A stretch of DNA of 37,913 nucleotides, from NCBI GenBank assembly GCA_020627825.1, contig JAHDGD010000027.1, positions 1-37,913 on the forward strand. Reading direction: 5' to 3'. Below the pieces are notes generated by a model, which saw only the letters and a program-made list of their open reading frames with translations, was not told the DNA's origin and searched no databases. The translations under genes and the position numbers were made by a program. Source of the stretch: Saprospiraceae bacterium (lineage in GTDB: Bacteria > Bacteroidota > Bacteroidia > Chitinophagales > Saprospiraceae). This document shows, piece by piece, positions 2,977 to 29,223 of the stretch (the stretch's first letter is position 1; every line of letters begins with the position of its first letter).

Positions 2977-5397
2977 TTATTTGATAATAATCACTTTATG
3001 AACCGATTTTTTGGTGTTATTTTGATTCATTACTTCAACAAAATATTGGCCAGCAGGAATTGTACTCGTATTCAATTGAACATTCCTTTCATTCCTTACA
3101 ACATGTTGAAAAAGTTGTCTGCCTTGTAAGTCCATAAAGCTAATAATTCCCTTAAACGAACTTCCAAAATCTATAAAAAGTTCATCAGAACTTGGATTAG
3201 GATACACTTCTAGGTTTATCGTTTCTTCTATTTCTGCACTACTTACATCATAAACACCTTTTCCTATGGCATATTCACCAGGTTGCACATTTTCTACTTC
3301 AAGAGAGCCTTTTCCATCAATAGGAATCAATATCTTCAAATCGGCAGCAATAGGCTCCCAAAGTTGTGAAGGATCCGTTCTGTAAAAAAGCAAAATAGAA
3401 TCTTCGCTTACGGTTGCAAGTGGGTAATCAAGCCCATAAGTAGACTTACCATCGTATGGAAACCTCAGATTGATCTTATAGTCCCCAGGAAAATCACCTA
3501 TGATTCTCCAGTAATGATTTTCATTAATCTCGAGATCTCCAGCAACAATATGATCTTCTGGTTTTCCATATATGTGCTCTATACGAATATTTAAATCATC
3601 TGTTAATGCTTCTACTTCGAATGCATTTACATCAACCAAACTAAAAAAGTTGATTCCTTCTTCTGTAATTATCATTTCATCTGCTGTCCTTGCTTGGTTT
3701 AATGTATTATCTTTATTAAACACAACTCGTTTTACTTCAAAATCTGTTTCTAAATCAAGCACTGTATATTGACCTGACACTTCCACTAATTGCTCACTTA
3801 CTTCATTGTTATACCCATACAAATGAATTGTCAAAGGTGTTAATCCATGAAAAGAGTCCGTTCCATAAAGCTTTTGTTGAACATACACTGAAGTTTCATA
3901 AAGCCCTCCTCCTATTTCTTCACTAACTACAGAATCCTCTACAAAAACTGAAAATCCTGGATTAAAAACCCAAGCATCAAAAAAAGGTTGCATGTCCATT
4001 CCAGTAGATTCGGTCAATTGATCTCTAAATTGATGTGCATCCAAATGACTATAAGCAAAGTTTTCTAATATGGATCTCATTCCCACACTAAATAAAGTAT
4101 CCCCTAGGTACCCTCTCAAATTGTGAATAACACTAGCTCCTTTTCTATAGGTATGCGTACCATATGTAAATTCATTTGGCATATTGGATAATGGGCGGAA
4201 GATTTCATCGTCTCGATGTGCATTTTGTAATACATCAAAATGATTAGCACGAACTTGTTCAAGAAAATCTTCTTTCCCATATAAACATTCAGTAGTAAGA
4301 TGTGCACCATATTCCGATGGCCCTTCTTTAATCCACATATCTCTTTCCGTACTCAATGTAATTAGATTTCCAAACCAATTATGGGCTAACTCATGTGCCA
4401 TTAATCTATTGTTACTTTCCGCATTTCCATTAATTGAACTGATCGGATAAGCAATATGAGTAGGATGTTCCATAGCACCCACGGTCGTGGCTACGTACCC
4501 TACTCGCTCCCATACATATGGACCAAACCAGTCTTCCATACAATCTATTGCTGCGGGTAAATTTCCCATAGAACCTTTCATTGCCGTACTATCTTCAGGC
4601 TTTGCCATCAACTTTATATCTACAGGACCATACTGCCCATTATGTGTGCTCCACATAGTATGGTAATTTGCTATAGCAATACTTGTTTGGTAAGTAGTAA
4701 TCTCTTGCTCCATTGCATATGTCGTAGTTTTTGTTCCATCACCATTATCTACTATTCCGATTTCTGTTCCTACAGCATGAGCATTTAAAGTGGCACTATG
4801 TTTCATGCTTATTTCATAGGTAGAACGCTCCTTAAAATTATCAAAACATGGAAACCACCCTCTTCCAAAATTATGTGGATTCGCTGCGATGCCTATTCCT
4901 AAATTATAAATATAGCCTTGTTCTGTAACCAAACCGCCAAATCCCGAATCATCTCGTGTAGGATTCCCTTGATAGTACACATCCACTTTAAATTCTTCAC
5001 CAATACCAAAAGATTCAGCAATGTCCACATAAACTTGAAATCCATCATTAATAAATGTTGATGCTACTCCATTTACAAAAACACTATCAACTTGAAGGTC
5101 CAAAAGATCAAACGTAACTTGTTGAACATCTTCCATCTTTGGCTCTAGAGAAACAGTCGTATGTGCAGTAAGATATGGTGGAGCAGTAAGATCTGCAAAA
5201 ATAGTATAATGCAACACATCAAAAGTGTCACTCCTTACACCATCCGTATCAACTGGCGCCATAGGAACAAATCCAGGAGCAACCTTGTATTCTGCAAACT
5301 CTCCATGGCAAGAAACAGGGTAATCAATTTGGGTTAAACCCAAAAAACTCCATAATAACCCTATAAAGAGAAGTAACATTCGTTTCATAACTATCAT
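2977..5397 (-). CDS. Secreted M1-family metallopeptidase with T9SS sorting domain
   Basis: An 806-residue zinc aminopeptidase-like protein. A signal peptide (MKRMLLLFIGLLWSFLG, cleavage before the Gln of LTQ) is followed by the M1 N-terminal beta domain (to about residue 215). The catalytic domain has GAMEH in place of the usual GAMEN substrate-binding motif, the zinc motif HELAHNW near residue 333 and the downstream glutamate in WIKEGPSEY. A beta-rich region follows, and the last ~80 residues are a T9SS type A sorting domain (VYPNPSSDELFIDF to VIIIK). It is thus expected to be exported across the outer membrane and either released or attached to the cell surface, degrading peptides. MKR four codons in (5388) is an equally plausible start. 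The AsmA-like gene follows at once downstream. A copy of the dispersed palindrome lies on the signal-peptide cleavage codons. Confidence 0.9.
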   Translation of the reverse strand: MIVMKRMLLLFIGLLWSFLGLTQIDYPVSCHGEFAEYKVAPGFVPMAPVDTDGVRSDTFDVLHYTIFADLTAPPYLTAHTTVSLEPKMEDVQQVTFDLLDLQVDSVFVNGVASTFINDGFQVYVDIAESFGIGEEFKVDVYYQGNPTRDDSGFGGLVTEQGYIYNLGIGIAANPHNFGRGWFPCFDNFKERSTYEISMKHSATLNAHAVGTEIGIVDNGDGTKTTTYAMEQEITTYQTSIAIANYHTMWSTHNGQYGPVDIKLMAKPEDSTAMKGSMGNLPAAIDCMEDWFGPYVWERVGYVATTVGAMEHPTHIAYPISSINGNAESNNRLMAHELAHNWFGNLITLSTERDMWIKEGPSEYGAHLTTECLYGKEDFLEQVRANHFDVLQNAHRDDEIFRPLSNMPNEFTYGTHTYRKGASVIHNLRGYLGDTLFSVGMRSILENFAYSHLDAHQFRDQLTESTGMDMQPFFDAWVFNPGFSVFVEDSVVSEEIGGGLYETSVYVQQKLYGTDSFHGLTPLTIHLYGYNNEVSEQLVEVSGQYTVLDLETDFEVKRVVFNKDNTLNQARTADEMIITEEGINFFSLVDVNAFEVEALTDDLNIRIEHIYGKPEDHIVAGDLEINENHYWRIIGDFPGDYKINLRFPYDGKSTYGLDYPLATVSEDSILLFYRTDPSQLWEPIAADLKILIPIDGKGSLEVENVQPGEYAIGKGVYDVSSAEIEETINLEVYPNPSSDELFIDFGSSFKGIISFMDLQGRQLFQHVVRNERNVQLNTSTIPAGQYFVEVMNQNNTKKSVHKVIIIK
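5328..5344. repeat. Dispersed palindrome, copy 1 (GGGTT variant)
   Basis: TTTGGGTT and AACCCAAA are perfect arms around a single A at 5336. The copy lies within the M1 peptidase gene, about 52 nt after the MKR start codon, on the codons for the signal-peptide cleavage region (LGLTQ). Confidence 0.7.
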
Positions 5398-5680
5398 TTT
5401 ACACCTATAAAAGTAAAGATTTTATATGATTCGTTTAGCCTTAAATCTCAGTTCATAAAGACAATTATTAGTGTTTTTAGTTAATAAGACCACACAAGAT
5501 TAATCGAATAAATGATCTATGGACGATCAAGAACATACAATTCAATCACTTGCAAGCTATTATTCTTAATAAAATTAAAGAATGGACACAACGTTTTTAA
5601 TTTTCTGCGCGTTTCAATCATAATCTAAGGTTTCGATGATTTTATTGAAATACTTATCAAGACACTTTATTTAAAATTGA

Positions 5681-6487: not shown

Positions 6488-7515
6488 CCATTTAAAGAAA
6501 TTCGATGTTCAAGGACGTCCAATAAACGATTGATCATATCATCAGACTGGTCTTTGTGCGTAACAAAACGCATCGTTTCACCACTAATTGGTTTCGCATA
6601 AATATCATGGGCATTCAGTTGCTTAATAAAATCGGCAGAATCTATCCCCTGCAGATCAAAAACAATAATATTGGTATGGACTGGAGCAACTGAAGAAACA
6701 TATGGCTGTTGGGCAAGTACATGACCTATTTTTTTTGCTCGATCATTATCAATTTTCAGACGTTCGATGTTATGTCGTAAAGCATACAAACCTCCAGCTG
6801 CTATAATTCCAGCTTGTCGCATACCTCCTCCCATAACTTTTCGAAATTTCCTTGCCTTTTTAATAAAGGCTTTATCACCAATAAGAAGAGAGCCAACTGG
6901 AGCTCCTAGGCCTTTGGATAAACATATACTGATGCTATCAAATTGTTCTCCTACTTCTTTTGTAGATTCATTAGTCTCTACTAATACATTGAATAACCTC
7001 GCACCATCAAGATGTAATGCTAATCCTTGCTTTTGTGTATATTGAGTAATAGGTCTTATTTCATCAAGAGTGTAATACGATCCTCCAGCTTTATTGCAAG
7101 AATTTTCAAGTACAACAAGTCTTGAATTTGGTAGCCAATCAAAATCTGGTCTTACAGCTTGCTTTACTTGTTCTACTGAAATTTTTCCATGTTGCCCATG
7201 AATCAAACTAACTCCTACTCTACTATGATATGCATAACCGCTTGTTTCATATTGATAAACATGGCTAGAATAATCGCATATCATATCATCCAGTGCCTGG
7301 GTATGACATTTAATTGCTAATTGATTTGTCATTGTTCCTGAGGGACAAAACAATGCTGCCTCTTTATTAAACAATTGAGCAGCATAAGACTGGAGTTCAT
7401 TTACAGTGGGATCTTCACTAAAAACATCATCTCCTACTGGAGCCTGAGCCATGAAGGCTCGCATGTTATCGCAAGGAACTGTTACGGTATCTGAAACTAA
7501 ATTGATGGAATCCAT
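6484..7515 (-). CDS. ltaE: Low-specificity L-threonine aldolase
   Basis: A 343-residue PLP enzyme of fold type I that cleaves L-threonine or allo-threonine to glycine and acetaldehyde in the cytoplasm. Family features are the opening NLVSDTVT, the GDDVFSEDPTVNEL segment near residue 28, the FCPSGTMTNQLA cofactor loop near 56, the HLDGARLFN aspartate near 168 and the PLP lysine in SICLSKGLGAPVGS near residue 201, followed by RKVMGGGMRQAG. Length is normal for the family. Its ATG overlaps the stop of the upstream DUF151/UVR gene by one base (TAATG), so the two are probably translationally coupled. Assignment is secure; exact stereospecificity is not visible. Confidence 0.92.
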   Translation of the reverse strand: MDSINLVSDTVTVPCDNMRAFMAQAPVGDDVFSEDPTVNELQSYAAQLFNKEAALFCPSGTMTNQLAIKCHTQALDDMICDYSSHVYQYETSGYAYHSRVGVSLIHGQHGKISVEQVKQAVRPDFDWLPNSRLVVLENSCNKAGGSYYTLDEIRPITQYTQKQGLALHLDGARLFNVLVETNESTKEVGEQFDSISICLSKGLGAPVGSLLIGDKAFIKKARKFRKVMGGGMRQAGIIAAGGLYALRHNIERLKIDNDRAKKIGHVLAQQPYVSSVAPVHTNIIVFDLQGIDSADFIKQLNAHDIYAKPISGETMRFVTHKDQSDDMINRLLDVLEHRISLNG

Positions 7516-8126
7516 TATGATTGACCTGAATCTATGCCTTTTCTATTGTTGAGCTCATCCCTTATTTTCGCCGCTTTTTCATAATCCTCATTTGAAAGTA
7601 CTTTTGCAAGTAATTTTTCTAGATTTTCAACGCTCATTGTTTCAATGGAAGCTTCTTCGGCTTTCTTTTGCGATGACTTTTTCCGAATGGTTTTACTTTG
7701 TTGAGCTGCTTCTTGTTCATCCAATACAACGCCAGCTTGTTCCATTATGAATTCATATGTATAAATAGGGCATTCGAAACGAACAGCCATTGCGATTGCA
7801 TCACTAGTTCTTGAATCAATTTCATATAATTCACCATCCTTCATACACACCATTCTTGCATAAAATATTCCGTCAAGCAAGTTGTTAATGACGATTTCTT
7901 TTAAGGTAATTTGAAAAGCGTCTAGTGTATTTCTGAAAAGGTCATGAGTGAGCGGGCGATTGGGAGCCATTTTTTCCATTGCAACAGCAATTGCTTGTGC
8001 TTCGAAACCTCCTATAATTATAGGCAATCTTCTATTTCCATTTGCTTCACCTAGTACAACAGCATAATTATGGGAATTTGTCACACTATGGGACAAGGCA
8101 ACTATATCAAGTTCTACTTTCTTCAT
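7515..8126 (-). CDS. Bifunctional nuclease family protein (DUF151) with C-terminal UVR motif
   Basis: A 203-residue protein in two parts. Residues 1-135 form a DUF151/BFN domain with conserved LPIIIGGFEAQAIA, a DLFRNTLDAF segment and the DSRTSDAIAMAVR motif. Residues ~165-198 form a UvrB/UvrC-type UVR helical hairpin (ENLEKLLAKVL, DYEKAAKIRDEL), a protein-interaction motif also found on Clp adaptors. The link between has a basic Ser/Lys run (SKTIRKKSSQKK). The DUF151 plus UVR combination is common in Bacteroidota; nuclease activity was reported for plant members and is not proven for bacterial ones. It is the first gene of a pair with ltaE. A weak -7-like TATCTTCG lies at 8187-8180 on the minus strand. 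Confidence 0.85.
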   Translation of the reverse strand: MKKVELDIVALSHSVTNSHNYAVVLGEANGNRRLPIIIGGFEAQAIAVAMEKMAPNRPLTHDLFRNTLDAFQITLKEIVINNLLDGIFYARMVCMKDGELYEIDSRTSDAIAMAVRFECPIYTYEFIMEQAGVVLDEQEAAQQSKTIRKKSSQKKAEEASIETMSVENLEKLLAKVLSNEDYEKAAKIRDELNNRKGIDSGQS

Positions 8127-8226
8127 TTGCGATTTTAGATATATGACGACCCTTCATGAGTCATTTAAATTTTCAGGCACGAAGATAATTTTATCCATAG
8201 TAAATATAGAAAAATTTATAATGAAT

Positions 8227-8282
8227 AAAAAGAAAAACTCCATTACCAAAATATCATACATGGTAATGGAGTTTTTCTTTTT
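8227..8282 (-). terminator. Long perfect hairpin downstream of etfA
   Basis: The arms 8227-8248 and 8261-8282 are perfect 22-bp reverse complements with a 12-nt loop. The GC-containing core is CTCCATTACCA / TGGTAATGGAG, flanked by A-rich and T-rich tracts on both strands, so either strand would give a hairpin followed by U residues. It sits 46 bp after the etfA stop and would end the etfBA transcript before the DUF151 gene. A small plus-strand reading frame across this stretch (8143-8331) looks non-coding. Confidence 0.8.
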
Positions 8283-8327
8283 TTGTTTAATGACTTTGTT
8301 AAAAGTGCATGAAATAAACAAATCGAT

Positions 8328-9287
8328 CTAACTTGCTAAAACATTTTTAAATGCTTCATTTAATTTAGGAACTGCATCGAAAAGATCCGCAACAATTCCA
8401 TAATCAGCCGCTTTAAAGAAAGGCGCTTCAGGATCTTTATTAATAACAACAATGACTTTACTGTTATTCACACCTGCCAAATGCTGAATTGCACCTGAGA
8501 TACCTATTGCGATATATAAATTAGGACGTATAGCTACACCGGTTTGACCTACGTGTTCATGATGAGGTCTCCAGTCTGCATCTGCAACTGGTCTTGAACA
8601 AGCAGTCGTTGCACCCATAGTTTGTGCCAGGTCTTCGATGATACCCCAGTTTTCTGGTCCTTTCATACCTCGACCTGCACTAACAACTAATTCTGCTTCT
8701 GGTAATGGAATTTCACCATCAACTGTTTTGGTTTCCAATACATTAATTGATGCCGCACCTAATGTAACCTCTGCATCTACAATATCACTTACACTATCTG
8801 ATTTTGCTGGTGGGACAGTATTTCCTATTACGGTTATAACTTTATTTGTGGAATTAACTTTGTAGTCAGCAAGCGCTTTACCACTAAATAAAGATCGTCT
8901 TACGATAAAGTCGCTTCCTTCCTGAGGCAAGGAGTTAACTGCAGTTACCAATCCAGCATTCATACGAACAGCTAAACGTCCAGCAATTGATTTTCCTTGA
9001 GAAGAATGAGAAGCAACTATTGTTGTCGCACCTATTGATTGAGCCAAGTCCGCTATTGCTTTAGCAAACTGTTTACTATCAAATGGAGTTACCTCACTTT
9101 TATTAATTTGATAAATTTTATCCGCGCCATAAGAAGCTAATTCCTCAATATTTGAAACGGTTCCTATGGTTACAGCTGACATTCCTACACCCAATTTATC
9201 CGCTAACATTCTACTATATGTAAGTGCTTCGAAAGATGATTTCTTGCACACTCCTTTTAAATTTTCTGCAAATACTAAAACAGACAT
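8328..9287 (-). CDS. etfA: Electron transfer flavoprotein alpha subunit
   Basis: A 319-residue FAD-binding subunit of ETF, which passes electrons from acyl-CoA and other dehydrogenases to ETF:quinone oxidoreductase. The N-terminal half is the alpha/beta ETF fold starting SVLVFAENLKG. The C-terminal FAD domain carries GRGMKGPENWG near residue 205, then CSRPVADADWRPHHEHVGQTG-type residues with the conserved arginines, and IAIGISGAIQHLAG followed by INKDPEAPFF. All FAD-contact motifs look intact and length is standard. It lies 20 bp downstream of etfB in the usual operon order. This supports fatty acid or branched-chain amino acid oxidation, which fits the MCC-type carboxyltransferase elsewhere in the window. 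Confidence 0.95.
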   Translation of the reverse strand: MSVLVFAENLKGVCKKSSFEALTYSRMLADKLGVGMSAVTIGTVSNIEELASYGADKIYQINKSEVTPFDSKQFAKAIADLAQSIGATTIVASHSSQGKSIAGRLAVRMNAGLVTAVNSLPQEGSDFIVRRSLFSGKALADYKVNSTNKVITVIGNTVPPAKSDSVSDIVDAEVTLGAASINVLETKTVDGEIPLPEAELVVSAGRGMKGPENWGIIEDLAQTMGATTACSRPVADADWRPHHEHVGQTGVAIRPNLYIAIGISGAIQHLAGVNNSKVIVVINKDPEAPFFKAADYGIVADLFDAVPKLNEAFKNVLAS

Positions 9288-10212: not shown

Positions 10213-10632
10213 ATGTTTCGAATTTTTATAATCCTTTTTTTACTTTTTTTTTCTTTTTGGGCTCGAGCCCAAAATAGTATAGAAATAATGGTGCACGACA
10301 TTTTCCCAGCTGAAGGACATTTGCGATTAGCATTATATATTGAAAGTGATGAGTTTTTAGCGTCAGAAGGAATGTTTAAAAACAAAATTGTGAAAGTTAC
10401 TGGAAATTCTATGAAAGTAACCTTTGATAACATACCAAATGGAACCTACAGTGTTAGTCTTTATCACGATAAAAATTCAAATGACACATTCGATTTCAAT
10501 TTCATAGGTATGCCTCTTGAAACGTATGGTTTCTCCAATAATGTCTTTCATAGATTCTGGGCGCCCAATTTTGAAGAATGTGCATTTTATACAGAAGAAG
10601 ATGTCGCCATGTCGATAAATCTTCGTCGATGA
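10213..10632 (+). CDS. DUF2141 secreted protein
   Basis: A 139-residue protein with a signal peptide (MFRIFIILFLLFFSF, cleavage in WARAQ after the second Ala). The mature ~120 residues match DUF2141: GHLRLALYIESDEF, the NIPNGTYSVSLYHDKNSNDTFD core near residues 75-96, then the conserved GMPLETYGFSNN, APNFEECAF and a terminal SINLR strand. The family is a small periplasmic or exported beta-sandwich of unknown function, often beside outer membrane proteins. The dispersed palindrome covers the signal-peptide cleavage codons. It starts a rightward gene run; a lipoprotein follows after 66 bp. Family assignment is secure, role unknown. Confidence 0.85.
   Translation: MFRIFIILFLLFFSFWARAQNSIEIMVHDIFPAEGHLRLALYIESDEFLASEGMFKNKIVKVTGNSMKVTFDNIPNGTYSVSLYHDKNSNDTFDFNFIGMPLETYGFSNNVFHRFWAPNFEECAFYTEEDVAMSINLRR
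10255..10274. repeat. Dispersed palindrome, copy 2 (CTCGAG variant)
   Basis: TTTTGGGCTC and GAGCCCAAAA form a perfect 20-bp palindrome. It lies in the DUF2141 gene, centred about 51 nt after the ATG, on the codons for FWARAQ at the signal-peptide cleavage site. The inner 18 bp are identical to the copy at 32853-32870. Confidence 0.8.
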
Positions 10633-12249: not shown

Positions 12250-12564
12250 ATGAGAAAAAAGCAGATAGAAAATATGTTAAAGGATTCTCCGAATGACTCC
12301 TTTTTACACTTTGCCTTAGCTAAAGAATATGAAAAAGAAGAAGCATGGGAAGATGCCATGAGGGAATACGAATTTATTGTACAAAACGATCCAGACTACG
12401 TAGGAGTTTACTATCATTTAGCTCACGTGGCTATCGAATTAGAAAAACCTTCGGAATACATCCAAAAAGTATTCGACGATGGCATTGCGATATCTACTAA
12501 CCAGCACGATTTACATGCAAAAGCTGAGTTACAAAATGCTAAAACAAACTGGGAACTATCTTAG
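12250..12564 (+). CDS. Small TPR protein
   Basis: A ~104-residue cytoplasmic protein (no signal peptide) with two tetratricopeptide-like helix pairs: SFLHFALAKEYEKEEAWEDAMREYEFIVQ-type residues around 17-45, then DPDYVGVYYHLAHVAIEL, followed by KAELQNAKTNWEL. TPRs form protein-binding surfaces; no partner is evident. ATG 12250 is two bases after the stop of the hydrolase gene; an in-frame TTG at 12244 overlapping that stop is possible but unnecessary. It is the last gene of the rightward run and converges on dapF. Confidence 0.75.
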   Translation: MRKKQIENMLKDSPNDSFLHFALAKEYEKEEAWEDAMREYEFIVQNDPDYVGVYYHLAHVAIELEKPSEYIQKVFDDGIAISTNQHDLHAKAELQNAKTNWELS

Positions 12565-12591: not shown

Positions 12592-12614
12592 TTTTTGGGC
12601 TTAAAGCCCAAAAA
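12592..12614. repeat. Dispersed palindrome, copy 3 (CTTAAAG variant, intergenic)
   Basis: The arms TTTTTGGGCTT and AAGCCCAAAAA surround a single A at 12603, in the 50-bp gap between the convergent TPR and dapF genes. The inner 21 bases are identical to those at 24437-24457 and 29301-29321. No U-tract follows the stem on either strand (A residues do), so it is not a standard intrinsic terminator despite its position. Confidence 0.8.
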
Positions 12615-13415: not shown

Positions 13416-16400
13416 TTATTGTACAACAAGATATCTAGTTTCTGTGTTTTGGCTTGCTCCAAATTCTACAGCATATTGACCAGCTTGAAGAGGTAAAGTA
13501 TAGGATTCAATTTTTGCATTCTGCTTTATTTCTTGAATCAATCTACCATTCATATTATAAATTCTAAACTTTTCAACATTTTGCTCCCCTAAATCTACTT
13601 GGAATGCGTCGCCACTTACAACAACGTTAGGAAAAATTTTCACATCATCCAATTTTGGAACACTTACGGATACAATATCTGTATCATGAGATAATTCATC
13701 CGCATCATACACTCTGATTTTATAATACAAAATGGTACTGGATAAATCAAAATCTTCAAATCTTGCAACATGAGAATTAGCCTCTCCTTGCACAAGCACA
13801 TGGAAATCTTTCCCATTCGTACTTTTTAATAACTCATACCTTTCATAATGAGCCAATCCACTCCAATCTAGTTCAATGTAATCCTGAGAAAATTCTGCAT
13901 TCAGTAAAACTTCCCAGGCACTCAATGAAACATTCCCGTTTTCAGCAACAATGAATTTACCCGATGAACTTAATGCATTTAAAGTTTGAAACGTAATTGT
14001 ACCATCATTCTCGAGTGTCAAAGAATCTGCTTCATCAACACTTCCCCCCCATCCATATTCCCAATAGGTTGGCACTTTATATAGTTCAAAAAATTCAGGA
14101 TGTTCTTGATAAATTTCAATCCCATCCATAAAACCAGAAATGCTGACATTTTTTGGTGCTGAAATGGATTGATTAAAGCCATAATTATTCATTACCCAAT
14201 ATCCATTGCTAATTTGATTACTTTCTGGAAGTGGCAAACCTGGAAGTTCATCAAGCTTAGTAATCGAAAGTGGGCCTTGTGGAGTAATGTCGCCTTCTTC
14301 AAACGTAAGTTCTATACCTGCACATTCAAAATTATACGTACCAGGACCAAATATTTCCAGTCTATCGGAACAACCACCACCTATCGGAGCCATTGAAAAT
14401 GTTCTAGAAGCGTTTGAAATTAAGTGTGCATGATTAGAACCTGTGCGATCTGTCAGCAGCCCATCTTCGTTATTTACTTGATAATAAGCAAACAAACCTT
14501 CTTCTCCTTCTGTACTTGTGAGGTGCATGTTCTGTTGTATTTCTTCATATGTCAGCGCTCGATCGTAAAATTTCACTTCATCAATTACACCTGTTAAATA
14601 ATTGGAAATAGCGAATTCATCTGAACCAATAAGAAAATGATCTTCAAAGTCAATGGTTGAAATGTCTTTACTAAAAAAGGCACTTTGTTCATTCACATAA
14701 AGCGTGATGCCTTCATTTGAGACTGTCATTGCGATGTAAGCCCATTTATTATATGGAACATATAAGTCTGATATAACAGATGATTGGAGTTCATCCCATG
14801 AGCTCGTTAAGTAACCTGAAGAATTAATAAATAATCCAGTCCCATTCGTACCATCTCTGTGGACAACAACGCCTGCTTCATTGTAAATGGGACCATATCT
14901 TTTTACCCATGCAGAAACTGTAAAAGTAGATAAGGATTTGTTGAATGGAACGACTTTAGCATAAGCAGAATTCCCTGTTGTCAAACTATTCCCAGCTGTA
15001 GGTTCAATTGCACATCCATCCTCCACTGTAATAAAATCTGATGATTCAAAAACATAATCTCCTTCTGAAGTGAAAATTTCCAATTTCACAGCATATGTTC
15101 CTGCTTCTGCATAAGTTACTTTAGGAAAAACTTCAGTAGATGTTCCGATATCACTACCTTCAAAAGTCCATAATCTCGTGTAATTAGATTCTACTGGACT
15201 TCTATCCATAAAGTAAAACGTATCACGTAGACATGAACTGTGATGTACATTAACCATAGGAACTGCTGCTCCACCTGCTTGTGTTAATTCTGTTTCAAAA
15301 ACTCCTCTGTGTGTTGCATTAATTAATTTACCCGATTGATAATGAGGTATGATTCGAGTAGAGAACGTATGCGCTGGAAGACCACTTGCAAGCATTTCCC
15401 ATTGGGAGCCAGCATGTGTAAAAACAGTTCTTCTTGTACCAATATAAATCCTATCCTCAGTGCCTTCGTGGTGCACAATATTCGTAGGAAACTCATCATC
15501 CATTTCTGAAGGCGTTATGTTCTCCCATGTTTCTCCGGCATTTGCAGAAAAAAACACGGAGTTACCACTAAGATCAAGATTCGAAGTTGTTGAAGGAATA
15601 CGAACAGCCCATATATAAAGCGGTTTGCTGCTTCCTACTGCAATATCATAAGTAATCCATGTATCTTGATTATTATATAGAGATGGTGGAATGGTGATAT
15701 CAGTCCATGTCTGACCACCATCCATAGATCGTTTAATTTGTTTCATAGCACTAAATCCAGGATAATAAACCAAATAAATTAAATCAGGATTAATTGTACT
15801 TACTTCAATCGCTGTTACTTTTCCAGAACCAAAATCTTCGAGTTCTTCAAATGAAATTCCGTTGTTGTCTGTCTTATATAAACTTCCGCCATTTCCAACA
15901 TAAAAAGATGTATAACAATGAGGATCAAAAACGATTTCACTGCTTTCACCTAAGATCATGCTTGCATTTGGTTTTTTTGATAGATTACTATTCTTAGGAG
16001 CAACTAATCGATCACCAGTTAATTTGCGCGTTCCAGCATGATCATAAATTAAAGTACTATTTCCTCTGTTTATTGAGGCTCTAGCATTATCTCCACTTCT
16101 GGTAGAAACCCATCCATCTATATAGGTATTGCCTTCTTTTAGCATCGTCCCATTATGATAGGTGCCTCCAAGCATGATGTCTTTATCATAAAACGACAAA
16201 TCAAATGCTTTGAAATCAGTTGCATGTATTCCGTTCATTCTTTTTTGAAAAGAAGAAGCATTATCCATTGATCTGAAAATTCCTCCATCACTCGCAACCC
16301 ATATTGCTCCATTTACAAATTGAATATCGTGAATATCAGCGTGAACATATGTTTCAGGATTATTGGATCGTATATATTCGGACAAACATTCCATCTGGTT

Positions 16401-19768: not shown

Positions 19769-21400
19769 ATGGCTACTAACTTACAATACAACCTAAACGA
19801 AGACTCAAATAAATTAGCAATTTCAGACTTAAGATTTAGACTAGAAAAAATTTATCAAGGAGGAGGAGAAAAGAAATTACAAAAACAACGTGATAAAGGA
19901 AAGTTGACGGCAAGAGAGCGCATAGCTTATTTAGTCGACAATGAAGATGAATTACTTGAAATTGGTGCATTCGCAGGGGATGAAATGTATAGCGAATATG
20001 GCGGTTGTCCTGCAGGTGGAGTGGTTGTCGTTATTGGGAAAGTTAGCGGTAGAACGTGCATTGTAGTAGCAAATGATGCCTCTGTAAAAGCTGGCGCATG
20101 GTTTCCTATAACAGGTAAAAAGAATTTAAGGGCACAAGAGATTGCTATGGAAAATAACATCCCTATTATCTATTTGGTAGATAGTGCAGGCGTTTTTCTA
20201 CCTATGCAAGATGAAATTTTCCCTGACAAAGAACACTTTGGTCGTATATTTAGAAACAATGCTGTGATGTCTAGTAAAGGAATTATCCAAATTGCAGCCA
20301 TCATGGGGAGTTGCGTTGCTGGGGGAGCTTATCTACCTATTATGAGTGATGAATCGTTGATTGTAGACAAAACAGGTTCTATATTTCTTGCTGGTCCTTA
20401 CCTTGTAAAAGCAGCTATTGGCGAAACAGTTGATAAAGAAACACTAGGAGGTGCAACTACACAATCTGAAATTTCCGGAGTTACGGATTATAAGATGAAA
20501 GACGACAAAGAATGCTTGGATACCATAAAAAAATTAATGGACAAAATAGGGCATTCTGATACGGCCGGTTTTGATAAAGTTAAAGCTATTGCTCCAGAAT
20601 ATGAAGCGGATCAAATAACGGGTATTCTTCCCGATGAGCGTTCCAAGCCTTATGACATGTCTGAGTTATTAAAATGTATTGTCGATAAAGATTCTCTCAT
20701 CTATTATAAAAAAGACTACGGTAAAACCATGATTACTGCATATGCCCGAATTGATGGTTGGTCAGTAGGTATCGTTGCGAATAATCGACAAGTTGTAAAA
20801 TCAGCAAAAGGTGAAATGCAATTTGGTGGAGTTATATACAGTGACTCAGCGGACAAGGCATCACGTTTTATAATGAATTGTAATCAAAAGAAAATTCCTC
20901 TGGTGTTCATTCACGATGTGACTGGATTTATGGTTGGTAAAAGAAGCGAGCATGGTGGAATTATAAAAGATGGCGCTAAATTAGTCAATGCTGTTAGTAA
21001 TTCAACTGTACCTAAATTTACTATTATTGCAGGTAATTCTTATGGAGCTGGCAACTATGCGATGTGTGGTAAAGCATACGATCCAAGATTGATTCTTGCT
21101 TGGCCGTCAGCAAAAGTTGCGGTCATGGGTGGTTCTCAAGCTGCTAAAGTTCTTGCGCAAATTCAGGTAAGTTCTATGAAAGCCAAGGGTGAAGAAGTTA
21201 GTGAAAACGATCAAAAAGAGTTGATTCAGAAAATTGAAGAACGGTATAATCGCCAAACTACTCCTTATTATGCAGCTGCAAGATTATGGGTGGATGCAGT
21301 TATTGATCCAAGAAAAACTAGAACTTATATTTCTCAAGGGATAGAAGCTGCTAATCACGCTCCTGTCGAAAAATTTAATGTGGGTGTTATCCAAACATAA
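19769..21400 (+). CDS. Acyl-CoA carboxylase carboxyltransferase, methylcrotonyl-CoA carboxylase beta type
   Basis: A 543-residue carboxyltransferase that transfers carboxyl from biotin to an acyl-CoA. It has an N-terminal ACC-beta crotonase half, with LTARERIAYLVD near residue 46, and a C-terminal ACC-alpha half. The run FPDKEHFGRIFRNNAVM and SCVAGGAYLPIMSDESL near 185-200, and GNSYGAGNYAMCGKAYDPR near 420, are typical of MCC-beta-like enzymes of leucine catabolism rather than propionyl-CoA carboxylase. The exact substrate could also be another branched acyl-CoA. The biotin carboxylase partner is not in this window. The rlmL-type gene overlaps its 3' end by 23 bases, so they are probably co-transcribed. 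Confidence 0.85.
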   Translation: MATNLQYNLNEDSNKLAISDLRFRLEKIYQGGGEKKLQKQRDKGKLTARERIAYLVDNEDELLEIGAFAGDEMYSEYGGCPAGGVVVVIGKVSGRTCIVVANDASVKAGAWFPITGKKNLRAQEIAMENNIPIIYLVDSAGVFLPMQDEIFPDKEHFGRIFRNNAVMSSKGIIQIAAIMGSCVAGGAYLPIMSDESLIVDKTGSIFLAGPYLVKAAIGETVDKETLGGATTQSEISGVTDYKMKDDKECLDTIKKLMDKIGHSDTAGFDKVKAIAPEYEADQITGILPDERSKPYDMSELLKCIVDKDSLIYYKKDYGKTMITAYARIDGWSVGIVANNRQVVKSAKGEMQFGGVIYSDSADKASRFIMNCNQKKIPLVFIHDVTGFMVGKRSEHGGIIKDGAKLVNAVSNSTVPKFTIIAGNSYGAGNYAMCGKAYDPRLILAWPSAKVAVMGGSQAAKVLAQIQVSSMKAKGEEVSENDQKELIQKIEERYNRQTTPYYAAARLWVDAVIDPRKTRTYISQGIEAANHAPVEKFNVGVIQT

Positions 21401-22547
21401 TAATGAAATCATAGTAAAAACAATGGCAGGAATGGAACACATTCTTGCTGATGAACTGAAAAATCTAGGTGTAAAAAAGATAGAAATCCTGAATCGTGCT
21501 GTAAAAGGTATAGCTTCAAAAAAAACGATTTACAGCATCAATCTTAGATCCTATTTCGCTCTTCGAGTACTTATACCTATTCGATTTGACAAAGTACATG
21601 ATGAAGATCAATTGTATTATTCTGTAAAAAGAATAAATTGGACTGACTTTATTGAACCTGATCAGACAATCGCTGTACGAAGTGCTGTAAAGTCAAAGTT
21701 TTTCAGTAACTCTCATTATGTAGAACTAAAAACGAAAGATGCGATCGTAGATCAATTCAATGCGAGAATAGGTAGAAGGCCTGATGTAGATTTGGATCAA
21801 CCTGATCTATCTGTAAATATTCATATTTTCAAAAATGCATTAACCATTTCCCTTGATAGTTCAGGAGATTCATTGCATAAAAGAGGATACAGAATTAGTT
21901 CAACAGTAGCTCCTATAAACGAAGTTTTAGCCGCTGGTCTCATTAAACTTTCAGGATGGAATTATAAAGATACTTTTATTGATCCCATGTGTGGTTCTGG
22001 TACATTTTTGGCGGAAGCCATTCTTCAAAAAAACAAAATCCCTCCACAACAATTACATCGAGCTTTTTCCTTTAAAAGATGGAAAGACTTTGATCAAGAT
22101 ATATGGGAAACTGTTATAGCTGAAGCAATGGAAAAACAAATCGATGATGATAACTTCAGAGTAATAGGAAGTGATTCCAATCCAAAGGCAGTGGAATCAG
22201 CAGAATATAACCTAGCTGAAGCAGGTCTCCTAAATTATGCGGACATTTCGACTAGAAACTTTCACAGCTATCCTGAAACTCAACACGCACATCTTATCTT
22301 TAATCCACCGTATGATGTCCGAATACAATCTGAAGACATTATTGAAGAATACAAAAAAATAGGAGACACCTTGAAACAAAAATTTGTTTCTTCTCAAGCT
22401 TGGATCATATCTGGTAATATTGATGCTTTAAAAAGAGTAGGCCTGCGACCAAGCAAGAAATTAACAATGATGAATGGCCCCATTGAATCAAAATTTTATA
22501 AATTTGAAATGTATGCCGGAAGTAAAAAGTCAAAGTATAATACATAG
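21378..22547 (+). CDS. rlmL: THUMP-domain class I rRNA methyltransferase (RlmL-type, guanine-N2)
   Basis: A ~389-residue protein related to the N-terminal methyltransferase of E. coli RlmKL, which makes m2G2445 in 23S rRNA. An N-terminal THUMP-like RNA-binding region (to about 150; KTMAGMEHILADELKNLGV, then LRVLIPIRFD) precedes a Rossmann methyltransferase with IDPMCGSGTFLAEA near residue 204, GSDSNPKAVESAEYN near 262 and the catalytic NPPYDVR near 311. The RlmK part is absent, as is usual in Bacteroidota. ATG 21378 lies inside the end of the carboxyltransferase gene; the conserved NEIIVKT start of the family argues against the later ATG at 21423. Overlap with the next gene suggests a tight operon. 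Confidence 0.85.
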   Translation: MWVLSKHNNEIIVKTMAGMEHILADELKNLGVKKIEILNRAVKGIASKKTIYSINLRSYFALRVLIPIRFDKVHDEDQLYYSVKRINWTDFIEPDQTIAVRSAVKSKFFSNSHYVELKTKDAIVDQFNARIGRRPDVDLDQPDLSVNIHIFKNALTISLDSSGDSLHKRGYRISSTVAPINEVLAAGLIKLSGWNYKDTFIDPMCGSGTFLAEAILQKNKIPPQQLHRAFSFKRWKDFDQDIWETVIAEAMEKQIDDDNFRVIGSDSNPKAVESAEYNLAEAGLLNYADISTRNFHSYPETQHAHLIFNPPYDVRIQSEDIIEEYKKIGDTLKQKFVSSQAWIISGNIDALKRVGLRPSKKLTMMNGPIESKFYKFEMYAGSKKSKYNT

Positions 22548-23350: not shown

Positions 23351-23352
23351 TG

Positions 23353-24386: not shown

Positions 24387-27300
24387 ATGCGTATTCATAC
24401 TAAATTGTTCATAACTGGTTTTTGTTTGTTTTTAATTTTTGGGCTTAAAGCCCAAAACCCTTTCAACGAAAAAGGCAAAGCCATAGACACAAAAGCAATC
24501 CATCTTGGTAAAACATCTCCAGTAAGAGATCTCATTCCTATGGGTCCTATTGCTAAAGAAAAAAAATCACAATGGAAAAAAGAGAATAAAGTACCTAGAA
24601 ACTTTGTAGGAAGAAGTCAAAATAAAGTTGTACACCCCGACCTTGAACACCAAGGTGTTGATAAATTAAGGCAAGGAATCCTTGCTGGTTCAAAAACAAC
24701 TACACCAAATTTATTGGTCAATGTAGATGGTATTACAAATAGTTCTCCAAATGACCCTTCAGGAGATATTGGTAAAGATTATTATGTGTTAGCGATTAAT
24801 GTTACAGAAATTGCAGTGTATGATAAAGCTGGTGCACAAATTACTACGTTTGCAGCAAATACACTATGGCAAGAAATTGGTTTTAGTTCAGCTGGCGATC
24901 CTATTGTCTTATACGATCAGATCGCTGACCGATGGTTAATCACTGAGTTCCCTTCAGGAAATCAGCTATTAGTGGCCATTTCAGAAAACAGTGACCCACT
25001 AGGTTCGTACGATGTTTACAATTTTCAAACTCCAAATTTTCCGGATTATCCAAAATATGCCATTTGGGATGATGTGATAACCGTAACAACAAATGAACAG
25101 GGCGCAGGTAATCTTACCACGTATTACATTAATAAAACAGAACTATATAAAGGGAACGAAACCGTCAGTATTCAGCGGTTGAACTTGCCAGGAAATTCCA
25201 ATACAGAATGGGGATTTTTTGTTGCCACTCCTGTAGACTGGATGGGACAAACTCCTCCTAAATCCAGTAATCCTATCTTTTTAAATTTAGAAGATTCTTC
25301 GTGGGGAGCCGTAGACGAAGACCAAATCGTAATTTCTACTGTTGAAATAGACTGGCAAAATCCTGACAACACAACCGTTGTAACACAATCTGTTGAAACT
25401 TCTCCATTTGATAGTAATCCCTGTTCGGTATTCGGGTTTGGGTTTTCATGTATGCCTCAAGCAGGTAATGGTGGTGGATTAGATGGAATTCCTGAAACTA
25501 TAATGAATCAGGCTGTTTACCGTAATTTCAATACACATGAATCTATGGTTTTTAATTTTATAACAGATGTAACTGATGGTGATAATCTTTCTGGAATAAG
25601 ATGGATGGAATTAAGAAGAGAAGATGCCGATTGGTATATTTATCAAGAAGGAACATTTTCACCAGATGATGGTCTTGACCGATACATGGGTGGGACAGCA
25701 ATAGATGGCGCTGGAAATATAGGATTAGCCTATAATGTTTCTAGTGAAGATGAATTTGTTGGTGTGCGTTATACTGGGCGAAAGCATGATGATCCACTTG
25801 GTGAAATGACAATTGCAGAACAAATTTTAGTTGAGGGAGAGAATACCATTCAAAGTGGAGCTCGGTTTGGAGACTATGCTCAGATGGGAGTTGATCCCAT
25901 CAATGATAGAACATTTTGGTATGTTACAGAATACGGAAAAGGTAGTGGATCATCATCGTCAACGCGAATTGCTGCATTTGAAATAGAAAGAGATAGTTTC
26001 GATATCGGTGCATATAAATTTAATGGAGCACTTACTGGCGGATTTATGGAAGATGAAGTGATTAGTTTTCAAGTTCAAAATTTTGGTACAGAAGCTATCA
26101 ACTCTTTTACCGCTGGATACATATTTGAAAATGGTGCACCTGTATCACAGCAATTTGATATAGAATTGAAAGGTGGAGAATCTACTATTGTATTTTTTGA
26201 TGAAACGGTAGATTTCATCGGAGCTGGAACCTATTCCTTAACTGGATTCACTCAACTAGAATCGGATCAAGTGATTGTAAACGATTCATTTCGAGTGGAT
26301 TTAACGAGTATCGCAGCTCTTGATGCAGGTATTGTGGGAGTTTCACTAGAAAGCCCTACATTGTGTGATAGCATTGCACCTTTGACTGTCACCCTAAGCA
26401 ATTTCGGAGGTGATACTTTGACGAGTGCAGATATCGAAATCTTATTAAATGGGACTAGCATTTATAATGAACCTTGGGAAGGTTCCCTTGCCTTTTGTGA
26501 GCAAGAGATTTTTCAGATTGACATCTCTGGTTTCATTAGTGGTGAAAACGAAATTATAGCTTCTGTTTCCAATCCAAATGGAGGCACAGATCAAGGGCTT
26601 CAAAACAATGAATCTACCACATCTTTGCAATTCATCTCCAATGCTGTTACCTTGTCAATTAACTTTGATTTTGATGCATATCCTGAAGAAACTACCTATG
26701 AAATTCTTGATGAAAACAATAATGTTGTAGCCTCAGGAGGACCTTTTTCAGGCAATATAGCAACAGAGCAATTCTGTGCAGATCCGGATGCTTGCTACAC
26801 CTTTGTGATTTTTGATTCATTTGGAGATGGGATTTTCTTCCCAGGTGGTTATGAAATTGTAGATGAAAGTGGAAATGTGTTAGCTTCTATCTTGAATAAT
26901 GACTTTGGAACGGAAGAACAAAACGAATTTTGTGCAACATTTATGTGTATGTTGGAAGTAGATATTGACATTACACCAGCACTAGAGAATGAAGGTGGAA
27001 CAATATTAATTACTCCTCAAAATGGTGTAGGGCCATTTTCTTACTCTATTGATGGTGGAAATACTTTTCAAGACAGTCCACTTTTCGAGAACGTGCCTGT
27101 AGGAAGTTATGCAATTGTCGTACTAGGGGGTGAGGATTGTGCATTTGAAGGTGAAGCGCTTGTTGAAGAATGCTCTTTAAGTGTTGTTATTGAAAAAGAA
27201 GATGAAACGGAAGGCATACCAGGTTCAATATTTATACAAGTTACAAATGGAAACCCTCCATACCAATATTCTATTGATGGAGGTGAAAATTTCAGTAATA

Positions 27301-27680
27301 ATCCTTTGTTTACCGGATTAGAAGAAGGAGACTATGAAATCGTAGTACGAGACGCTGACGGATGTGAATTTACAACTGTTATCACTATCGACTTTGTTGT
27401 GGCTACTGATACAGAAAAGAAAGGATATCGTATATCAGCAACACCTAATCCTACCAATGGAATTTTCTCTATTTTTATAGAAGGTGACATTCCAGGAGGT
27501 GAAAGATTAGGATACGTGATTTATAATGCAGCAGGTAAAATCATACGTACCGATGATCTTGTGCGATATGGTGATACATTCGTAAGTCAAGTAAGTTTAT
27601 ATCATGAAGCATCTGGGAATTATTATATTCGTTTCAATTCAGATGAAATAAACGAATTATTACGTGTCATAAAAATATAA
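24387..27680 (+). CDS. Large exported protein with SprB-like repeats and T9SS sorting domain
   Basis: A 1097-residue protein. Signal peptide MRIHTKLFITGFCLFLIFG with cleavage in LKAQN. Residues ~110-520 are a conserved beta-rich region (DPSGDIGKDYYVLAINVTEIAVYD, DPIVLYDQIADRWLITEF, FGDYAQMGVDP), known to me only as a recurrent module in marine Bacteroidota surface proteins. CARDB-like beta domains follow (~535-755). Two SprB-like repeats are visible near 880-905 (FSYSIDGGNTFQ) and 955-985 (YQYSIDGGENFSN, then LEEGDYEIVVRDADGC). The end (~1016-1097, ATPNPTNGIFSIF to IKI) is a T9SS type A domain. SprB is a gliding adhesin; repeats here are too few to imply motility. Likely surface adhesin or cargo. 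Confidence 0.85.
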   Translation: MRIHTKLFITGFCLFLIFGLKAQNPFNEKGKAIDTKAIHLGKTSPVRDLIPMGPIAKEKKSQWKKENKVPRNFVGRSQNKVVHPDLEHQGVDKLRQGILAGSKTTTPNLLVNVDGITNSSPNDPSGDIGKDYYVLAINVTEIAVYDKAGAQITTFAANTLWQEIGFSSAGDPIVLYDQIADRWLITEFPSGNQLLVAISENSDPLGSYDVYNFQTPNFPDYPKYAIWDDVITVTTNEQGAGNLTTYYINKTELYKGNETVSIQRLNLPGNSNTEWGFFVATPVDWMGQTPPKSSNPIFLNLEDSSWGAVDEDQIVISTVEIDWQNPDNTTVVTQSVETSPFDSNPCSVFGFGFSCMPQAGNGGGLDGIPETIMNQAVYRNFNTHESMVFNFITDVTDGDNLSGIRWMELRREDADWYIYQEGTFSPDDGLDRYMGGTAIDGAGNIGLAYNVSSEDEFVGVRYTGRKHDDPLGEMTIAEQILVEGENTIQSGARFGDYAQMGVDPINDRTFWYVTEYGKGSGSSSSTRIAAFEIERDSFDIGAYKFNGALTGGFMEDEVISFQVQNFGTEAINSFTAGYIFENGAPVSQQFDIELKGGESTIVFFDETVDFIGAGTYSLTGFTQLESDQVIVNDSFRVDLTSIAALDAGIVGVSLESPTLCDSIAPLTVTLSNFGGDTLTSADIEILLNGTSIYNEPWEGSLAFCEQEIFQIDISGFISGENEIIASVSNPNGGTDQGLQNNESTTSLQFISNAVTLSINFDFDAYPEETTYEILDENNNVVASGGPFSGNIATEQFCADPDACYTFVIFDSFGDGIFFPGGYEIVDESGNVLASILNNDFGTEEQNEFCATFMCMLEVDIDITPALENEGGTILITPQNGVGPFSYSIDGGNTFQDSPLFENVPVGSYAIVVLGGEDCAFEGEALVEECSLSVVIEKEDETEGIPGSIFIQVTNGNPPYQYSIDGGENFSNNPLFTGLEEGDYEIVVRDADGCEFTTVITIDFVVATDTEKKGYRISATPNPTNGIFSIFIEGDIPGGERLGYVIYNAAGKIIRTDDLVRYGDTFVSQVSLYHEASGNYYIRFNSDEINELLRVIKI
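24437..24457. repeat. Dispersed palindrome, copy 5 (CTTAAAG variant)
   Basis: TTTTGGGCTT and AAGCCCAAAA around A 24447, centred 60 nt after the start of the 1097-aa gene, on the codons for FGLKAQ at the signal-peptide cleavage site. All 21 bases match the intergenic copies at 12592 and 29301. Confidence 0.85.
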
Positions 27681-27703
27681 CTTCAAGTAACAAGAATATT
27701 TTT

Positions 27704-27740
27704 AAAGGTGTAGTTTGTATGTTTAACTACACCTTTTTTT
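27704..27740 (+). terminator. Intrinsic terminator after the 1097-aa T9SS gene
   Basis: AAAGGTGTAGTT (27704-27715) pairs perfectly with AACTACACCTTT (27725-27736), with a 9-nt loop and a T-tract through 27740. A standard plus-strand terminator 24 bp after the stop. Confidence 0.9.
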
Positions 27741-27775
27741 ATTACTTTTACTTTATAACACACAAAAATTAACAC

Positions 27776-28477
27776 ATGAAAGCATTCCTTTTTACAGTGC
27801 TAATCTTATTATGCACTATTCCTTCATTTAGTCAAGACTCTTTGCAATTCACTCCATGTTATTATGTCGGCAGCTCCTTCAATGTATTATTGTTAAGAAA
27901 CATTTCTCCTGGCCAAATTGTAACCATCAATCCACCGAATGGTAGCTTATTTGGAGATATTACTTTTAGTAACTCGAGGTATAAATCAGTGTCAGTAGCT
28001 CCTTTTATCGGTAAAGAATTGAATGCAAAAACTATGATTGGAATTCAATCAACTTATACCTCTGCTGAATTTATACAACGAGATGTTATAAACATTGTGC
28101 CTTTTGAAATAGGAGATCTTACTTCTAATATTCATTTACTCCGAGCAAGTTTATTTTTAAGATATAAATTAATATCTGCATTTTCATTCACACCATTTAT
28201 TGAACCCTCCATTAACTATGGTTTTTTAACCCAAAAGAATCAATTTTTAGATGTAATTGATTCTAGAGAAGTTGCCCATTATGCTCAAGTTATGATAAAC
28301 TTTGGTTTGTTATATAAAATAAATGAGCACTTTAATATAAGCTTAAGAGCAAATGGTATTAATTTGGTCAATGGTTATGTACAAACCAAAGGCATTGATC
28401 AAAAGGATTATTTTAAAGGATCCATGACAAGAGTGACTATTTCAGGTCTTTTTCTTGGATTTGAATACAAATTGTAA
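27776..28477 (+). CDS. Putative outer-membrane beta-barrel protein
   Basis: A 233-residue protein. A signal peptide (MKAFLFTVLILLCTIPSFS, cleavage before QDSL) precedes ~215 residues of alternating amphipathic strands (FSNSRYKSVSVAPFIGKELN, AKTMIGIQSTYTS, FTPFIEPSINYGFL, VMINFGLLYKI) ending in FLGFEYKL, a typical barrel closing strand with C-terminal aromatic pattern. Eight to ten strands are likely. The family cannot be named and its cargo or role is not seen. It follows its own terminator-separated promoter region (27741-27775) and lies 8 bases before the DUF1835 gene. Confidence 0.7.
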   Translation: MKAFLFTVLILLCTIPSFSQDSLQFTPCYYVGSSFNVLLLRNISPGQIVTINPPNGSLFGDITFSNSRYKSVSVAPFIGKELNAKTMIGIQSTYTSAEFIQRDVINIVPFEIGDLTSNIHLLRASLFLRYKLISAFSFTPFIEPSINYGFLTQKNQFLDVIDSREVAHYAQVMINFGLLYKINEHFNISLRANGINLVNGYVQTKGIDQKDYFKGSMTRVTISGLFLGFEYKL

Positions 28478-28485
28478 GGAGTTCT

Positions 28486-29223
28486 ATGGGACAATATCAT
28501 ATTCTGAATGGAGATTGCTTAGCTGACCAATTGGCTTTTTGGGTTGAACCCAAAATTGTTTTCAGAGAATGCTTGGTTACTGGACCTATTGAAGGGGATA
28601 ATATGCAAGAACTACTGGAGAATAGGATATCGTATTTTAATAAATATCATAATATTAGCAGTCAAGATTACAGGCAAAAATCCATAGATGAAATCTTGAA
28701 AATTCGCACATTCAATTCTGATGATCATATTCATCTTTGGTTCGAAAAGGATTTGTTTTGCCAAGTGAATATGTGGGCTGCTATGCATCTCCTGCCTTTG
28801 AATTCAAGATGGTTTGTTGTACAACCGATAGCAGATTCGTGGGAAGGTTTTGGATTATTGAACATGGAACAGCTGATTTCTTGTTATGACCACAAAACAG
28901 AAGTTAACCAGCAACAAAAAACATTATTTAAAGCATTGTGGCAAGATTACGTAATGAATGACTGGGATAATATGATCAAAAATGGAAATCAACTTCTTTC
29001 CATTCATCCATTCATGAACGAAGTCATAAAAGCACACATTGACAGATTTCCAAAGAACAATTCGCTAGGACGGCCACAGCAAACCCTACAAAACATTTTA
29101 AACACAACTGATCCCACTGATTTTCAGGCTATTTTTAAACAATTTAAAGAAATAGAAGGTATCTATGGATTTGGAGATGTACAAGTAAACACAATGATAC
29201 AAGAGTTAAAGATACAGCCTTAG
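28486..29223 (+). CDS. DUF1835 domain protein
   Basis: A 245-residue cytoplasmic protein with the DUF1835 start YHILNGDCLADQL (residues 4-16), followed by IVFRECLVTGPI near 26-37. This is the family's HIVNGD ... W.E.L..GP pattern. The rest is helical, including FEKDLFCQVNMWAA near 85. The family is uncharacterised. It has one of the few Shine-Dalgarno-like sequences here: AAGGAG at 28477-28482, partly within the preceding stop. The dispersed palindrome lies on the codons for AFWVEPK, centred 60 nt after the ATG, although this protein has no signal peptide. Confidence 0.75.
   Translation: MGQYHILNGDCLADQLAFWVEPKIVFRECLVTGPIEGDNMQELLENRISYFNKYHNISSQDYRQKSIDEILKIRTFNSDDHIHLWFEKDLFCQVNMWAAMHLLPLNSRWFVVQPIADSWEGFGLLNMEQLISCYDHKTEVNQQQKTLFKALWQDYVMNDWDNMIKNGNQLLSIHPFMNEVIKAHIDRFPKNNSLGRPQQTLQNILNTTDPTDFQAIFKQFKEIEGIYGFGDVQVNTMIQELKIQP
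28537..28555. repeat. Dispersed palindrome, copy 6 (GGGTT variant)
   Basis: TTTTGGGTT and AACCCAAAA around G 28546, inside the DUF1835 coding region, 60 nt after its start. It is the only coding copy in this offset range not on a signal peptide. Confidence 0.7.

Follow-up and report, generated by a model that had tools for sequence, protein, structure and literature searches.

Palindromes at signal-peptide ends of a Saprospiraceae genome as probable copies of a chromosome-wide DNA hairpin motif

A 37,913-nt stretch of DNA from a Saprospiraceae bacterium (the window; genome label G000, 4.46 Mb in 297 contigs) carries a short palindrome, TTTGGGC-loop-GCCCAAA, near the starts of several genes. 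Eight of the first 10 named relatives of the carboxyl-transferase gene of this genome are Saprospiraceae, in line with this family. An earlier note on this DNA had placed five copies at a near-constant distance after start codons and had proposed that a stem might act there in mRNA. We conclude that the start-proximal copies are the part, visible in coding regions, of a hairpin motif found throughout the chromosome. The palindromes are probably copies of a hairpin motif that is iterated through the chromosomes of several genera of the family and is kept as DNA hairpin sites. Copy number is high, the stem covaries, a small sample shows retention of copies in orthologous gaps, neither the sense strand nor a replication strand is preferred, and gain and loss are gap-free in the cases that can be aligned. 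If this is right, the family carries an overlooked DNA motif whose conserved feature is the fold and not the sequence alone. A literature search did not reveal a description of the motif among the matches listed, which were open-licence papers.

Abundance of the palindrome and its polar sister motif

The pattern TTTGGGN{2,9}CCCAAA occurs 451 times in the genome, compared to 2 occurrences of a reversed control pattern. Copies were located in a sample of 979 kb including the window, later 1.03 Mb of the 4.46 Mb. The contigs of this sample were largely chosen for listed copies, which raises copy density and should leave positions within contigs unaffected. Genes were called simply as longest open reading frames with ATG starts, and the automatic signal-peptide rule was crude. 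Two cores dominate the 125 copies of the 979-kb sample, GGGCTTWAAGCCC (48 copies) and GGGCTCGAGCCC (28 copies). The palindrome is 16 to 20 nt long, the 18- and 19-nt forms being dominant, and flank conservation is slight beyond approximately 7 bp. Neither dominant core had a match in viral contigs, and no other dominant palindrome stood out in the sample of the genome G043.

Seventy of the 125 copies are intergenic (27 in tandem, 20 in divergent and 18 in convergent gaps, 5 at stretch edges) and 55 lie in genes. Per kb, the density is 1.19 in convergent, 0.73 in divergent and 0.52 in tandem gaps, 0.06 in genes, and 0.44 in the interval 30-90 nt after starts. Spacing is mildly even, both for palindromes alone (p = 0.05) and together with the polar motif described below (coefficient of variation 0.81 vs 0.94 for random placement, p = 0.02). 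One convergent gap (L010, 9116-9363) contains three copies within 250 bp, two opposite GNAA forms flanking a TCGA palindrome. A link to promoters was considered and rejected: around intergenic copies, TAnnTTTG peaked in no bin other than one that overlaps the T-run of the motif itself. An intrinsic transcription terminator would fit the density peak in convergent gaps and the position of tandem copies, which in G000 lie nearer the upstream stop. However, the polarity is reversed, a T-run preceding and an A-run following the stem on both strands, hence the copies do not behave as intrinsic terminators despite that peak. Copies also occur in divergent gaps and inside genes, and a terminator function is hardly credible.

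An asymmetric sister motif, TTTGGGC-GNAA-GCCC, surfaced from half-sites outside the palindromes. These lone half-sites (98 vs 21) were also considered as independent half-sites, a reading that was rejected because the set includes the polar GNAA form. Stems of the type GGGC-GNAA-GCCC are preceded by TTT in all cases (41/41 in the G000 sample, 28/28 in that of the congener G210), while AAA follows in only 3/41 and 10/28, respectively. In G000, GGC-GNAA-GCC has TTTG or TTTT directly before it in 81 of 82 cases, and GAC-GNAA-GTC shares this T-run context (13/15 in G000, 17/20 in G210). In 14 genomes of the family, which cover seven genera and were picked for motif richness, the general polar form TTTK-GRC-GNAA-GYC reaches between 80 and 670 copies per genome; where genomes are related, their copies do not count as independent. 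Across the same genomes TTTKGGCGNAAGCC occurs 67 to 590 times, with 335 copies in G000 (163 forward, 172 reverse), and TTTKGACGNAAGTC adds a further 2 to 80 copies. The extended palindrome is a feature of this genus. Its strict form, TTTGGGCN{4,5}GCCCAAA, was found 284 times in G000 and at most once in each of 295 other genomes of the phylum, a set that included no congener. A looser palindrome reached 168, 52 and 25 copies in three congeners (assemblies 51, 96 and 61% complete), compared to no more than 39 in other genera of the family, where controls reached 41. In four genomes of one genus from another family of the same class (G313, G387, G444 and G460), TTTKGRCGNAAGYC occurs 23, 20, 20 and 15 times, against 3, 3, 4 and 6 for controls. 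The polar hairpin motif thus seems not to be confined to the family.

The middle stem pair of the polar form covaries. Across the 14 chosen genomes it is G-C in 2809, A-T in 765, G.T in 56 and A.C in 17 copies, that is 3574 paired and 73 unpaired; 98.0% are paired, whereas independence of the two sides would give 65.7%. G.T mismatches outnumber A.C mismatches (p = 5e-6), which points to the strand bearing the T-run and GNAA as the folding one. G.T is the milder mismatch in DNA also, and its excess does not separate DNA from RNA. An RNA wobble test on one-mismatch palindromes gave small counts, G.U falling on the sense strand in 4 and on the antisense strand in 3 cases. In tandem gaps, the TTAAA loop is found on the sense and antisense strand in a ratio of 9:9 in G000 and 0:4 in G210, and the polar motif in 11 sense and 17 antisense copies. 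With respect to the G-rich and G-poor strands, the TTAAA loop of G000 is split 29:28. Given that the sense strand is not preferred, an RNA signal in sense transcripts is unlikely to be the main function. Replication polarity of the KOPS or Chi type was not observed either, the 15-nt polar form being distributed 18:22 relative to GC skew in G000 and 12:12 in G210 (|skew| > 0.02).

Copies at signal-peptide ends

All five start-proximal copies described by the earlier note were found in the window (Table 1), and the offsets from the start codon are indeed nearly constant: approximately 52 nt for the M1 peptidase (from the MKR start; 61.5 from the longer ATG), 52 for the DUF2141 protein, approximately 65 for the 1432-aa protein, and 60.5 each for the 1097-aa protein and the DUF1835 gene. 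This pattern comes with caveats, as it comprises five of the eight window copies; those at 12592-12614, 29301-29321 and 32852-32869 are equally good yet not start-proximal, and the loop of the copy at 17641 is asymmetric. Three of the proteins had been assigned to the type IX secretion system (T9SS). For the M1 peptidase this assignment stands, since it passes the cut-off of the Pfam family Por_Secre_tail (27), whereas the 1432-aa and 1097-aa proteins, with 20.9 and 20.5 bits, fall below it.

Start-proximal enrichment at signal peptides is real, and copies are not spread evenly through coding regions. In the sample, 18 of the 54 in-gene copies whose start is known are centred 40-80 nt from it. 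Within 100 nt of a start there are 21 copies, and visual inspection placed 16 of these on signal-peptide-like ends, one being Tat-like. When signal-peptide-like genes and others were tabulated, as had been proposed, a copy was present in 15 of 228 and 7 of 527, respectively (Fisher p = 2e-4).

Codon choice was evaluated with a synonymous null, in which codons are drawn from sample usage. This null takes the proteins as given, although the motif may have influenced their sequences. Within the first 150 nt of genes with hydrophobic N-termini, 17 of 310 genes carried a copy, compared to 0.45 expected (about 38-fold). This bears out the claim that the shared DNA exceeds what protein constraint explains. 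Among genes with other N-termini, a copy was present in 6 of 445 (0.21 expected, about 28-fold), and the remainder of the genes contained 31 copies (1.2 expected, about 26-fold). As the fold excess is alike across gene parts, the DNA-level pressure looks similar everywhere. Signal peptides hold many copies since the motif can encode peptides such as FGLKAQ and FWARAQ, and the spacing of 50-60 nt follows from the length of a signal peptide. The palindrome at the starts of secreted genes results mainly from easy spelling in (F)GxxAQ and (F)WAxAQ codons. At AQ ends, palindrome-bearing ones included, 23 of 86 Ala codons are GCC, compared to 1774 of 17095 Ala codons sample-wide.

The earlier note had proposed that a hairpin in the mRNA slows ribosomes as the signal peptide emerges, or marks these messages. 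The start-proximal peak on signal-peptide ends would agree with this proposal, and the hairpin is present in the predicted fold of all five message starts. Moreover, a comparison with G210 was possible for two signal-peptide copies, and each is kept despite a changed peptide and left-arm frame (IWAGAQ vs FLGQAQ, and FGARAQ vs FWAEAQ). However, most copies lie outside such messages, 20 of them in divergent gaps, and the excess over the synonymous null is about the same in signal-peptide N-termini as elsewhere in genes. The loop has no sense preference in tandem gaps, and the five message starts have ordinary folding energies (z from 0.07 to -1.6). Stems are in excess at AQ/GQ signal-peptide ends of G000 (19/115 vs 3.4 under the null) and G210 (10/40 vs 1.3), but not in 27 such genes of G043 (0 vs 0.5) nor in 171 genes from 80 loci of other genomes (7 vs 7.2). 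Ribosome slowing or message marking is therefore very improbable as the purpose of the palindrome, although the hairpin may have a local, secondary influence on how individual signal-peptide messages are translated. Overall, the earlier interpretation is partly supported.

A further pair was noticed by eye and not counted as orthologs. The genes at L028 10891 (G000) and L070 1501 (G144) have similar N-termini, and both bear a palindrome at the signal-peptide end, the two differing in length and frame.

Retention, origin and possible function

Retention was analyzed in comparison with G210 (73 ortholog pairs, median 75% amino acid identity); G043 is more distant. With five exceptions, the G210 contigs had been chosen because copies were known there, and this may flatter the test. 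Among 27 syntenic gaps, the motif was present in both genomes in 5, only in G210 in 1, only in G000 in none and in neither in 21 (p = 7e-5). For palindromes alone the corresponding numbers were 4, 2, 0 and 21 (p = 9e-4). One kept pair consists of GGGCTTAAAGCCC and GGGGTTTAACCCC, GGGC..GCCC standing against GGGG..CCCC, with flanks that are not alignable by eye. In the other kept pairs the arms differ little, and in one of these the GNAA loop is found on the opposite strand. Of 11 aligned in-gene copies of G000, seven are palindromic and six of these are kept in G210. Four kept in-gene copies lie in conserved peptides, hence protein constraint may suffice there. One internal palindrome of G000 is absent from G043.

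Where the absence of a copy could be aligned, it was gap-free in 10 of 10 cases (8 in comparison with G210, in either direction, and 2 with G043), three G210 rows and one G043 row with long alignment gaps having been set aside. Thus, origin by substitution is favoured over insertion. A transposed element of the repetitive extragenic palindrome (REP) or miniature inverted-repeat transposable element (MITE) kind would likewise be short, palindromic, high in copy number and often intergenic. Against it stand the gap-free absences and the flanks, and the Y1 transposase family PF01797 was not found in four genomes of the genus (including two assemblies with a completeness of only 51 and 61%), while 5 of 14 control genomes were positive. 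We consider such an element extremely unlikely. In the excerpted text of PMC12306157, REPs are short stem-loops of high copy number, often near gene ends, and a stem-loop with a common consensus is likewise found here (451 copies, two dominant cores). The motif differs from REPs in location, as 55 of 125 copies are not extragenic, and in the lack of a REP-associated (RAYT) or other Y1 transposase in the four genus genomes and of an insertion footprint in alignable cases.

A by-product of mutation or repair, as proposed for the HIP1 palindrome, is another reading, possibly with template switching perfecting the hairpin arms. Template switching would yield paired arms without selection, and the gap-free origin and the wide differences in abundance among congeners point in the same direction. 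However, copies are retained at orthologous gaps, and the fixed T-run and GNAA loop demand sequence specificity, which makes a by-product improbable. HIP1 of cyanobacteria is a highly iterated palindrome for which the excerpt of PMC4390886 gives a mutational or repair-process model, and it resembles the motif as a short palindrome that is iterated through the genome with unclear function. The two differ in sequence, HIP1 being GCGATCGC and the motif here TTTGGGC-loop-GCCCAAA, and the latter has a variable core, hairpin covariation and a polar sister motif.

The motif could also resemble a DNA-uptake sequence, a polar word that spreads by biased transformation, is tolerated in permissive codons and often forms inverted pairs. 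It is indeed a short polar word that occurs in both orientations, in up to hundreds of copies and with related variants in relatives, and gap-free gain and loss as well as mildly even spacing would agree with such a spread. However, its stem covaries, and to our knowledge uptake sequences lack stem covariation. We regard this reading as unlikely. The sequences of Neisseria and Pasteurellaceae, in the excerpts of PMC2346458 and PMC1852404, are polar words in both orientations that are tolerated in coding DNA, are likewise biased within genes and form inverted intergenic pairs. The motif here differs by its covarying stem and by a T-run on the side opposite to that of a terminator. Among the papers listed on uptake, transformation and competence, none dealt with uptake words of Bacteroidetes, as far as titles and the beginnings of abstracts tell. 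HIP1, REPs and uptake sequences are relatives by behaviour; the motif is not a member of the REPs, nor does it share the HIP1 sequence.

Covariation together with the absent sense-strand preference is best fitted by a reader of folded DNA. The general polar form, 5'-TTTK-GRC-GNAA-GYC-3', would be a GNAA-loop hairpin with a T-run on its 5' side. An extended two-way form, TTTTTGGGC-TTWAA/TCGA-GCCCAAAAA, appears to have multiplied in this genus, and either of its strands would present a T-run and a hairpin. A putative factor may recognise the motif strand of the DNA in its folded state, either when single-stranded or when extruded, and the sites may be maintained by selection or biased transfer. 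Copies would settle where they are tolerated, in intergenic DNA and in coding stretches whose peptide the motif can spell, the best of which would be the signal-peptide end F-G-x-x-A-Q or F-W-A-x-A-Q. In integron attC sites and the ends of IS200/IS605 elements, one DNA strand is recognised through its hairpin and a short flanking tract. The motif here is smaller, and no Y1 transposase was found in the four genus genomes. A bolder version is possible, though we put it forward with considerable doubt: up to hundreds of tiny hairpins, each a T-run with a GNAA stem-loop, would form a code in the chromosomes of the family, a putative dedicated factor would read them in folded single-stranded form, and the two-way palindromic form of this genus would by now even shape the signal peptides of secreted proteins. 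Folded-strand reading might serve DNA uptake, recombination or chromosome handling.

Several observations weigh against folded-DNA hairpin sites. The extended palindrome has dyad symmetry up to its centre, and intergenic half-sites have a T at -5 in 67% of 144 (p-values for half-sites treat both halves of one site as independent); both are features of a double-stranded protein site. Together with the dominant 18- and 19-nt forms they would suit an operator of a dimeric protein that binds double-stranded DNA, for instance a nucleoid protein or a global regulator. This alternative is quite unlikely, as the palindrome has no fixed length (16 to 20 nt) and the polar sister motif is non-palindromic outside its stem, which covaries. 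Strand counts are not uniformly balanced. The TTAAA loop of G210 lies 6 times on the G-rich and 13 times on the G-poor strand, and within genes the polar motif is found in 56 sense and 83 antisense copies in three sampled genomes, the 15-nt form in 10 and 35, respectively. Peptides such as GLSPK and GAFAQ dominate the in-gene 15-nt form, and the antisense bias may stem from codon choice. Tandem intergenic copies are nearer the upstream stop in G000 (Kolmogorov-Smirnov p = 0.016), not in G210 (p = 0.61). Finally, ortholog numbers are small and a two-sided arm change is clear in only one kept intergenic pair, none of the four internal polar copies of G000 is kept in G210, and the single polar signal-peptide copy comparable in G043 is absent (GAFAQ vs RAYAQ).

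If the palindromes are DNA hairpin sites, a DNA motif visibly touches protein sequences, at signal-peptide ends such as FGLKAQ, FWARAQ and GAFAQ. Repeated peptides or hairpins at such ends should then be interpreted with caution, since they may be side effects of DNA-level pressure. A searchable motif is at hand for finding its reader.

Features of the window

The copies of the palindrome and of the asymmetric sister motif in the window are listed in Table 1. The stem pattern GGGCN{3,6}GCCC has 6 matches in the window, compared to 0.25 in shuffles, and an Rfam scan of the window gave no match above the gathering score.

Table 1. Palindromes and sister motifs in the 37,913-nt window
Feature	Position	Strand	Location
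TTTGGGTTAAACCCAAA palindrome	5328..5344	-	signal-peptide end FLGLTQ of M1 peptidase / T9SS protein, 2977-5397
TTTTGGGCTCGAGCCCAAAA palindrome	10255..10274	+	signal-peptide end FWARAQ of DUF2141 protein, 10213-10632
TTTTTGGGCTTAAAGCCCAAAAA palindrome	12592..12614		gap between genes that end convergently at 12564 and 12615; not near a start
Imperfect copy TTGGGC-loop-GCCCAA	17641..17656	-	signal-peptide end FGQQ of 1432-aa protein, 13416-17714
Sister motif TTTTGGC-GGAA-GCC	22006..22019	+	within gene 21378-22547
TTTTGGGCTTAAAGCCCAAAA palindrome	24437..24457	+	signal-peptide end FGLKAQ of 1097-aa protein, 24387-27680
TTTTGGGTTGAACCCAAAA palindrome	28537..28555	+	60 nt into DUF1835 gene, 28486-29223; no signal peptide there
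TTTTGGGCTTAAAGCCCAAAA palindrome	29301..29321		between convergent gene ends 29223 and 29323
Sister motif TTTTGGC-GGAA-GCC	30535..30548	-	within MutS-domain gene, 29323-31071
TTTGGGCTCGAGCCCAAA palindrome	32852..32869		final codons (ILGSSPK) of gene 31182-32879; convergent gene next

Two other structures were observed in the window. An inverted repeat of 37 nt at 8212-8297, 81% complementary with 12 nt between the arms, is located between the genes 7515-8126 and 8328-9287 and is unrelated to the palindrome. At 34740-34768, a terminator-like stem of 13 pairs is followed by a T-run, the ordinary polarity that the palindromes lack.

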